DNA of 64,000 bases from Brevibacterium zhoupengii (GTDB lineage Bacteria; Actinomycetota; Actinomycetes; Actinomycetales; Brevibacteriaceae), in contig NZ_CP088298.1 of NCBI RefSeq assembly GCF_021117425.1, positions 1-64,000 of the forward strand, in the 5' to 3' direction. A program made the position numbers and the translations under genes. Within the stretch, counting starts at the first letter, position 1, and the number at the start of each line of letters is the position of its first letter. The notes beneath the pieces are model-generated. The model was not told where the DNA came from. It saw only the letters and a program-made list of their open reading frames with translations, and made no database searches. Positions 45,002 to 47,002 of this stretch are shown in pieces.

Positions 45002-45074
45002 GACCGCTTCATCGGTGAGCAGCAGACTTCCAGTGCGGATTACTGAGACTCACTGAACTGAGTACCATGGTGTG

Positions 45075-45782
45075 ATGGACACACCGCAGGAGGGCTCGGC
45101 CCGGGAGACCGGCCGAGCCCCTTCTGTGTCTCCACCCCTCGTTACGAGCATCATCATGGTCCTCACCACCGTGGTCTTCCTGGCTCAGCTGCTGCCCAGC
45201 CTGGACCTGGTCCATCGACTCAGCTTCGTTCCTGCACTCGTGCTCGAACAGCCCTGGCGGGTTCTGAGCGTGGCGCTGGTGCACGAGCAGCCGTCACCGT
45301 TCCATCTCCTGGCCAACATGATCGGCCTGTTCTTCTTCGGATCCTTTATCGAGCGTGCCTTGGGCCGCTGGCGATTCCTCGCCATCTATCTGCTCGGCAC
45401 GGTGGGCGGTTCAGTCATGGTCCTCGTCCTCGCCAAGCCGTTCACGGTGGATTGGGTGACGAACAACATCGGCGCCTCCGGTGCGGTCTTCGCCATCGTC
45501 GGCGTCCTGCTGGTGCCGACGCAGAAGCTGGATCGCAACATCGCCGGAGTCGTGCTGTTCGTGGCTCTCAACTTCGGATACGGATTCCTCGTCGCAGGAG
45601 TGTCCTGGCAGGCCCACCTCGGCGGGCTCATAGCGGGCTTCGTGCTCGGGTGCGGTGCTCTTCTCGTACCGAGGAAGCAGTCGACGCTGGTGTTTGTGCT
45701 GACAGCCCTCGGTCTGCTGCTGGCCATGCTTGTCGCCGGGGCCTGGAGGATCAACGACGCTTGGCAGATTGCCGCGATGTGA
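45075..45782 (+). CDS. Rhomboid family intramembrane serine protease
   Basis: A 235-residue membrane protease with about six helices. Catalytic Ser135 is in NNIGASGAVF (GxSG motif) and catalytic His181 in WQAHLGGLIAGFVLG; HLLANM near residue 78 is the helix-2 signature. The N-terminal 20 residues are hydrophilic. ATG 45075 is taken over GTG 45072. Substrates are unknown; in this position it is conserved between ppiA and crgA. Confidence 0.9.
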   Translation: MDTPQEGSARETGRAPSVSPPLVTSIIMVLTTVVFLAQLLPSLDLVHRLSFVPALVLEQPWRVLSVALVHEQPSPFHLLANMIGLFFFGSFIERALGRWRFLAIYLLGTVGGSVMVLVLAKPFTVDWVTNNIGASGAVFAIVGVLLVPTQKLDRNIAGVVLFVALNFGYGFLVAGVSWQAHLGGLIAGFVLGCGALLVPRKQSTLVFVLTALGLLLAMLVAGAWRINDAWQIAAM

Positions 45783-46207
45783 TGGACTCCGAGCGACGCT
45801 GTATTCAGGGTGTCGACCACGGGTGATAGGTGGTTCTCAGGCTTATATCAGACTTCCGTGGAAAATTGGCACCCGCGGGCCTCGAATTTACTTGTCCACA
45901 ACCTTTATCCACATGGTGGATAACTTACATAGGTGTATTTCGCCTGGTCACAGGCCCAAAATAAGTTATACACAAGCGACGCACCCGGCTTGGGTATAAC
46001 TTCGCCCCTGTGGACAACGGCATTGGCGAGGCAATGGATAGACGGTTGAAACGTCAATATCGGGTCCTCGGCGCAACCGCAGATGAGCCGCTTGCTAGCT
46101 TGGTCCGCGGTCGTCGAACAGCAGCGAAGAACGGGCGCTGCGTCGACTACCGGGCTTTCACCCTCTGTGTCGACACAACGCCCGTTTCTCGAAACGCGGC
46201 TTGCTGA
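45783..46207. promoter_or_regulatory. Gene-free gap with a cluster of DnaA boxes
   Basis: No gene is supported in this 425-base gap. Its centre holds five DnaA-box-type sequences in 126 bases: TTGTCCACA (45892-45900), TTATCCACA (45905-45913), GGTGGATAA inverted (45915-45923), TTATACACA (45966-45974) and TGTGGACAA inverted (46009-46017). Three are exact matches to TTRTCCACA. The surroundings are AT-rich for this genome. A DnaA-titration site or accessory origin element is a reasonable inference; the usual oriC is 44 kb away. Confidence 0.7.
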
Positions 46208-47002
46208 CTACCGCCAGCGCGTGGACATGATCAGACCCGCGACGAAGAAGGCGAAGCCGATGAGGATGTTCCAATTGCCCCACGCCTCGACCGGGAATGC
46301 TCCCTGCGAGACATAGAAGGTCACGAGCCAGATCAGGCCGATGATCAGGAGGCCGATGAGCACCGGCAGGAACCAGCGCGGGTTCGGCTTGATCGTCTGC
46401 TGACCGGACTGCGAAGTGTACGAGGCGGTCTTGCGGCCCTGGGGGCGCTTGGCCGGGTTGCCCGAACGTGAAGTGCGCTTGGCCGAGGAGCCCTTGGCTG
46501 ACGAACCCTTGGTCGCAGCCTTGGAGGACTCGCTCTTATTCGCGGACTTGCTGTCTTTGCCGTCCTTGTCGGACTTGGTCGCCTTGGCGGCCTTCTCAGG
46601 CTTCGTGGCCGTCTTCGAGTCCTCGACCGAGTCCTCGGCATCGTCGGAGTCATCGACGTCATCAGCGTCGTCCTCAACGGCTGCGTCAGCGTCCTTTGCG
46701 TCAGCCTTCTTGTCCACGGAGCTCTTCGCCGCGGACTTCTTGTCGGCTGCAGCCGTGGCGGCGGAGGACTTCTCGGTTGCATCAGCGTCGTCGGCGACCA
46801 CATCGGAGGTGTCCGAGGAATCATCCAGGTCGAGGAGATCGCCGTCGAGACGCTCGTCCTTCGGATCCTCGGCCTGCACGGTCTGCGGATCCTCGACTAC
46901 CTCGACATCGTCATTCGACTGGGCCTTAGTTTCGACCTTGGCCTTCGACGAGTTGCGAGAAGTGCGCTGGGGGCGCTGGGTCCGTCCGTTGGACTTGGCC
47001 AC
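46208..47002 (-). CDS. crgA: Cell division protein CrgA with long N-terminal extension
   Basis: A 264-residue protein. The C-terminal ~80 residues are a typical CrgA: PNPRWFLPVLIGLLIIGLIWLVTFYVSQG, GNWNILIGFAFFVAGLIMSTRWR, two membrane helices. CrgA is known to interact with FtsZ and the FtsI/PBP machinery. Normal CrgA is about 90 residues; here about 180 extra residues of Lys/Asp/Ser/Ala low complexity (repeated SSAK, DKKADAKDADA and acidic clusters) precede the helices. The frame has ATG 47002 and no stop, so the extension is real in this sequence. Confidence 0.85.
   Translation of the reverse strand: MAKSNGRTQRPQRTSRNSSKAKVETKAQSNDDVEVVEDPQTVQAEDPKDERLDGDLLDLDDSSDTSDVVADDADATEKSSAATAAADKKSAAKSSVDKKADAKDADAAVEDDADDVDDSDDAEDSVEDSKTATKPEKAAKATKSDKDGKDSKSANKSESSKAATKGSSAKGSSAKRTSRSGNPAKRPQGRKTASYTSQSGQQTIKPNPRWFLPVLIGLLIIGLIWLVTFYVSQGAFPVEAWGNWNILIGFAFFVAGLIMSTRWR

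Follow-up and report, generated by a model that had tools for sequence, protein, structure and literature searches.

We identified a composite DnaA-box site in the gene-free gap between a rhomboid gene and the cell-division gene crgA of Brevibacterium zhoupengii, within the first 64 kb of its single-contig chromosome (4,408,116 bp); this whole stretch of 64,000 nucleotides is referred to here as the window. The boxes lie about 44 kb from dnaA, outside but near oriC, and include a three-box module that is directly abutted by a palindrome of a different type, a putative operator for a second protein. We established the architecture of this site, its conservation and its position. New here are a sequence correspondence in 37 of 45 sampled families of the class, a defined module, and an operator that the site has in common with the promoter of a whiB-family gene. 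We consider it probable that this is an old composite site outside oriC that tunes DnaA, with input from a division-linked regulator.

An earlier note on this DNA, made from the sequence alone, had described five boxes within 126 bases of the 425-base gap, three of them exact (TTRTCCACA) and two with one mismatch, had placed them between the rhomboid gene and crgA, and had counted two exact boxes in the dnaA-dnaN region. All of this was borne out: the flanking genes match PF01694 and PF06781, and the two exact boxes of oriC are at 1775(-) and 1966(+), in an oriC-type dnaA-dnaN gap (1757-2298). The chromosome-wide comparison of box density proposed in the note also favoured the cluster. The genome holds 29 exact boxes and 923 boxes at up to one mismatch, and the crgA gap is the one place where three exact boxes fall within 200 bp. 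Under a uniform Poisson model, the expected number of clusters per genome is about 1e-5 for three exact boxes and 2e-5 for five one-mismatch boxes.

The boxes recur beside crgA across the class. A CrgA match was obtained in 147 of 148 class genomes and in all 79 order genomes (13 shared; about 213 genomes in total); the B. zhoupengii genome itself has, outside the window, another CrgA-family match at G000:C1:2323123-2323290, a weak one (25.2 bits against a cut-off of 24.8). We examined 148 loci, part picked by score and part chosen for family spread before scanning, and left out two with short gaps, so that 146 had the full 400-bp gap. Boxes were counted at up to one mismatch, with a reversed motif and the 5'-side stretch as controls. 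On average, 2.44 boxes stood 3' of crgA; the reversed motif averaged 0.26 and the 5' side 0.14. At least two boxes within 400 bp were present in 98 of the 146 loci (2 reversed, 4 5'-side), at least three in 70 (0 and 1), and an exact box in 80 (1 and 0). By family, 37 of 45 had at least one locus with at least two boxes, against 2 and 4 in the controls. Family f5, probably Streptomyces-like, carried boxes 3' of crgA in 10/10 loci, mostly without the 32-bp module. Loci from other classes, which were kept apart, had at least two boxes in 7 of 17 cases, and the reversed control in 0 of 17. No report of such a class-wide site was found in the open-licence papers of PubMed Central (PMC).

Where gaps held few boxes, 20 long stretches chosen for that reason were scanned, and five had a group of at least two boxes further off. 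The distance between dnaA and crgA is 9-133 kb in 39 of 42 genomes (median 31 kb), and in both genomes of family f82 crgA lies 569-614 kb from dnaA and the gap has no boxes. Distance from dnaA cannot explain everything, because family f62 keeps its boxes at 94-133 kb, and two genomes of f83, at 73-111 kb, have none. Two loci stand out by their numbers. In L155 (G296, family f78), 21 boxes at up to one mismatch occupy about 410 bp of the rhomboid-crgA gap (~740-1150), a count far above that of other loci, and dnaA of this genome is on another contig. L250 (G349, family f2) has 13 boxes in three close groups, 3.2-3.8 kb 3' of crgA and about 16 kb from dnaA, in a genome of one contig.

The arrangement of the boxes is also conserved. 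Measured from start to start, convergent boxes are most often 23 bp apart (71 of 148 loci), followed by spacings of 10 bp (39) and 11 bp (32), and a middle box in either direction stands between the outer pair. Many families have the order + 13 + 10 -, and Brevibacterium and the mycobacteria-like family f6 have the order + 10 - 13 -. At up to one mismatch, the resulting 32-bp module occurs in 111 of 148 genomes, compared with 4 for the reversed control. Of the 99 module places listed, which come from 78 of the 111 genomes, 63 (60 genomes) fall no further than 1 kb 3' of crgA. Boxes 2 and 3 of the window form a two-box palindrome, TTATCCACATGGTGGATAA, at 45905-45923. At up to one mismatch, this palindrome is found in 26 of 148 class genomes, once in each (reversed control 2), and 23 of these 26 places are 21-288 bp 3' of crgA; G244 and G253 have it beside dnaA, and that of G197, for which no crgA place is listed, is unplaced. 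In G241 the module and its abutting operator-type palindrome stand together 9 kb from dnaA and away from crgA, as if the composite rather than crgA were the unit.

A convergent pair of the form TTGTCCACA-N14-TGTGGACAA was also observed away from crgA (G174:C1:81811 and G202:C1:80366, about 80 kb from dnaA in these single-contig genomes), with like places in G229, G256, G265 (one mismatch) and G283, of genus g147; it is perhaps another DnaA site.

Directly before the + box of the module stands a palindrome of the TTACACNNGTGTAA type. Its ACACNNGTGT core is matched in at least six of eight positions in 63 of 86 module-bearing loci, representing 31 of 35 families, and 57 of these 63 matches are at an offset of 2 or 3 bp; among the same 86 loci, the controls gave 21 matches downstream (13 families) and 4 in shuffled sequence. 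Genome-wide, 13 of the 72 places of the exact operator pattern TKACACNNGTGTMA are at crgA, and we examined 20 of the other 59. In 12 of the 20, the operator lies 5' of homologous open frames, and all five frames tested are WhiB (PF02467); one of the 12 is in B. zhoupengii itself (C1:1835934-1835947). Seven others (L270-L274, L277, L282) form a second recurrent setting, in which the tested frame of L272 is NrdR, the ribonucleotide reductase regulator, with the operator just before nrdR, and two further frames gave no match. The remaining place, L281, fits neither group.

Each of the 69 class genomes yielded a close match to the WhiB domain of B. zhoupengii. Pfam gives the gene as WhiB, and it is presumably whiB2. 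Within 500 bp before this gene, the operator is matched in at least 10 of 12 positions in 45 of the 69 genomes and 24 of 29 families, against one match behind the gene and two in shuffled sequence. Independently of any seed, GTGTAATT is the 8-mer common to most families before the whiB-family gene (22 of 29, and 0 behind it). When the whiB-promoter motif was applied to the crgA gaps, scores of at least 8 were reached in 93 of 146 gaps (38 of 45 families), compared with 1 of 146 in each control. Most matches scoring at least 9 stand at a few fixed offsets from the module, and 15 of 84 are in loci without it.

Within Brevibacterium, a homology search provided 25 related loci, and 20 of 26 sequences were used in the alignment. 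At least three boxes (up to one mismatch) follow the rhomboid gene in 25 of 25 loci. Where boxes are present, their spacings of 13, 10, 51 and 43 bp are constant (one base less in L018), whereas the first box stands anywhere from 4 to 277 bp past the rhomboid stop. The 126-bp core is free of insertions and deletions in 18 of the 20 aligned sequences. Column identity is 92% in the boxes, including the degenerate one, 79% in the rest of the core, and 52% and 49% in the flanks, which are unalignable. The operator includes invariant non-box columns of this alignment. The two-mismatch box is 98% conserved, while the exact box 5 is only 71% conserved. In a separate draw of five other members of the genus, G300 has the cluster and G338 has a pair of boxes, displaced by an intervening gene. 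Loci L152, L236, L238 and L239 have a long open frame directly after crgA, with the rhomboid gene further off or undetected and the cluster displaced or absent. The features of the B. zhoupengii locus are collected in Table 1.

Table 1. Features of the rhomboid-crgA locus of Brevibacterium zhoupengii (positions in the window).
Feature	Position	Strand	Remarks
Rhomboid gene, convergent neighbour	45072..45782	+	PF01694, E 3.4e-27; stop ends at 45782
Gene-free gap between rhomboid gene and crgA	45783-46207		425 bp
Conserved core holding all boxes	45892..46017		126 bp
Three-box DnaA module	45892..45923		32 bp; outer convergent boxes 23 bp start to start; matches class-wide module at one mismatch
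DnaA box 1, TTGTCCACA	45892..45900	+	Exact; 98% column identity
DnaA box 2, TTATCCACA	45905..45913	+	Exact; 94% column identity
DnaA box 3, TTATCCACC, palindrome with box 2	45915..45923	-	One mismatch; 98% column identity
Putative palindromic operator, non-DnaA, TTACATAGGTGTAT	45925..45938		Fits class-wide palindrome and whiB-promoter motif (score 8.8)
DnaA box 4, TTATACACA	45966..45974	+	One mismatch; 90% column identity
Degenerate DnaA-like box, TTATACCCA, inverted repeat with box 4 (45963-46002)	45991..45999	-	Two mismatches; 98% column identity
DnaA box 5, TTGTCCACA	46009..46017	-	Exact; 71% column identity
crgA, convergent neighbour, cell division	46208..47002	-	PF06781, E 5.7e-23

The rhomboid of the window is 97% identical to its counterpart in B. 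aurantiacum ATCC 9175. A known RNA family was rejected as a candidate for the gap, since an Rfam scan of the 425 bp found nothing with E up to 1. A GC-rich inverted repeat (46125-46191) lies between crgA and the cluster; its 23-nt arms are 83% complementary and enclose a loop of 21 nt. It is perhaps a terminator for both genes, and was not called by a terminator scan limited to short loops.

A counterpart of the site is found in mycobacteria, where we take Rv0011c to be crgA. Recombinant Mycobacterium tuberculosis DnaA bound five genome regions in vitro, the homologous five regions are bound by DnaA in vivo in M. smegmatis, and the Rv0010c-Rv0011c gap is one of the five, confirmed by gel shift (Hicks et al., 2020; PMC7738170). 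Recurrent clinical changes fall mostly within a palindrome of two box-like sequences; three site variants, once rebuilt, made cells longer and reproduced the drug phenotype seen with dnaA variants (these also have long cells, which the authors compared to hypomorphs), and site variants in the tuberculosis bacillus lower isoniazid susceptibility (PMC7738170). In the part of the paper used here, the authors left open the consequence of DnaA binding at this gap and saw no correspondence of the site in other species (PMC7738170). The earlier note had held that no site of this kind is established at the locus, which is wrong for the class, as DnaA has been mapped to the Rv0010c-Rv0011c gap (PMC7738170). 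Its broader suggestion of a role in DnaA control outside oriC is supported by the rarity of the cluster, its strong conservation and the mycobacterial binding (PMC7738170); the fixed three-box module and the second operator had escaped the note.

Like the Rv0010c-Rv0011c site, that of the window is on the same side of crgA (gap 45783-46207, crgA stop at 46208) and contains a palindrome of two DnaA-like boxes. The mycobacteria-like f6 loci share the + 10 - 13 - geometry of the window, most with weaker boxes. Brevibacterium differs in that its convergent neighbour is the rhomboid gene, its boxes are stronger, and two or three more of them follow. For the mycobacterial site, DnaA binding is known by experiment, and we file the Brevibacterium site as a counterpart of this crgA-side site with DnaA binding predicted.

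Box clusters near oriC have reportedly been described in Streptomyces coelicolor by Smulczyk-Krawczyszyn et al. in 2006 and in Bacillus subtilis by Okumura et al. in 2012, and the present cluster resembles them in lying outside but close to oriC. It is also similar to Escherichia coli datA and to the DnaA-reactivating sequences (DARS) DARS1 and DARS2 in being a non-coding DnaA-box site outside oriC, and in a broad sense it would work like datA, DARS or titration clusters. In a scan that is weak for DARS1, the box geometry did not look the same as that of datA and DARS: the three-box core was not clearly recovered from the E. coli DARS1 gap, so that the geometries are poorly comparable. The E. 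coli consensus for integration host factor (IHF), WATCAANNNNTTR, has 0 matches in the window; E. coli-type IHF was thus rejected as the accessory protein, and since the IHF site that datA has between its boxes was looked for and not found, we do not file the site as datA, nor, with geometries so poorly comparable, as DARS. To our knowledge, E. coli IHF is not expected in actinobacteria.

Several observations weigh against a conserved composite site that regulates DnaA. Eight of the 45 families (f51, f65, f68, f71, f74, f77, f80, f82) have no two-box locus in the 400-bp gap, with some boxes of f77 lying further from crgA than that, and 36 of the 99 listed module places are not at crgA, several of them near dnaA (e.g., G223, G207, G215, G250). 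The genus alignment proposed in the earlier note gave a divided answer: boxes recur throughout the related loci, while three of the five other genus members (G286, G313, G326) lack a cluster over the 7.5, 2.0 and 3.2 kb scanned on the 3' side of crgA, the stretches of G313 and G326 stopping at contig ends. The exact pattern TKACACNNGTGTMA is found at 72 places in 52 of 148 genomes and its reversed control at 31 places in 22, a difference of only about twofold, and in B. zhoupengii the pattern occurs once against three reversed, with the same picture at one mismatch. Frequency alone therefore says little, and the case for the operator rests on its position. No more than 8 of 45 families have exact GTGTAATT in their crgA gaps (control 1), fitting of the whiB motif used WhiB upstream regions alone and started from a typed seed, and the operator of the window is imperfect, scoring 8.8 against a whiB median of 24.8. 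The binding data themselves come from mycobacteria, in which the dnaA variants have an unchanged initiation rate in the part of the report used here, so that a replication role in Mycobacterium is not shown (PMC7738170).

Other explanations have to be weighed on the same evidence. Were the site a passive or inactivating sink of the kind represented by E. coli datA or the Bacillus and Streptomyces clusters, soaking up or inactivating DnaA after initiation with the second operator incidental, its closeness to oriC would be accounted for, and the near-oriC clusters of S. coelicolor and B. subtilis are described as able to hold back initiation at the wrong time (PMC4585315). A mere sink would need neither fixed spacing nor an abutting operator, however, and both features argue against one. 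Loss of a sink should also raise free DnaA, whereas the mycobacterial site variants resemble hypomorph-like dnaA variants. We regard a sink as unlikely, though it deserves some weight. The same phenocopy (PMC7738170) is a point in favour of a DARS-like reactivator, in which an ordered complex of DnaA would stimulate the release of ADP and so increase the active form, and the second protein would serve as a timing factor. DARS sites contain a three-box DnaA core, and datA and DARS2 have accessory-protein sites (PMC4585315), which is reminiscent of the fixed three-box core and further protein site described here. An activator that is duplicated immediately after initiation would tend, however, to promote re-initiation, and the comparison with DARS1 is hampered by its poorly recovered core. 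We find a reactivator of this kind rather doubtful.

DnaA and the second protein might instead control transcription of crgA, the rhomboid gene or its mycobacterial replacement. The presence of the same operator 5' of a whiB-family gene makes it probable that the protein binding it has a transcriptional role somewhere, and the mycobacteria-like loci L082 and L092 have a following open frame on the crgA strand. Wherever a rhomboid gene was detected (100 of 100 loci), it converges with crgA, so that no promoter is needed in the gap; a promoter scan of the rhomboid-crgA gap found no promoter-like site, and neither flanking gene changes in expression in mycobacterial dnaA mutants, in the part of the report used here (PMC7738170). 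We consider transcription control improbable. A second origin, or a segregation or anchoring site, would suit the boxes and a modestly AT-rich minimum at 45900 (35% GC within 40 bp, compared with 32.5% at oriC), but an oriC-type gap with boxes already lies between dnaA and dnaN and no clear skew switch is seen at the site in 4-kb windows, which makes this very improbable. The gap is richer in AT than the genes around it, as chance or base composition would have it; the reversed-motif, shuffled and 5'-side controls and the fixed spacing contradict such an origin, to which we give next to no credence.

We return to the composite site that tunes DnaA. DnaA would bind the three-box module cooperatively and, in Brevibacterium, also further boxes 43-51 bp on. 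A second, palindrome-binding protein, which would also act at the promoter of the whiB-family division regulator, would occupy the abutting operator and change DnaA occupancy, either by helping or by excluding DnaA. The MerR-type regulator Rv1830 (ResR/McdR) may be a candidate for this protein. WhiA is disfavoured, as its motif in the S. venezuelae WhiA paper is an asymmetric GACAC; in the main text of that paper, crgA, dnaA, rhomboid and palindrom- do not occur. Nearness to oriC would be fitting for a site that responds to initiation. Since replication reaches the site early, we propose that it then adjusts the free or active DnaA and connects this with the division programme. We infer the second protein, its effect and the coupling of replication to division, and the sign of its effect on DnaA likewise; the mycobacterial phenotype hints that the role may be a positive or coordinating one.

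A wider reading, to which we lean somewhat less than to its opposite, is that the site is an ancestral actinomycete control point. DnaA and a transcription factor of the whiB promoter would compete or cooperate on one composite element, and replication initiation and the division programme could thus read each other's state on the DNA. The correspondence described here means that the site of the mycobacterial drug-phenotype variants becomes testable in harmless model actinobacteria, and with it the question of how these bacteria control DnaA and keep replication in step with division.
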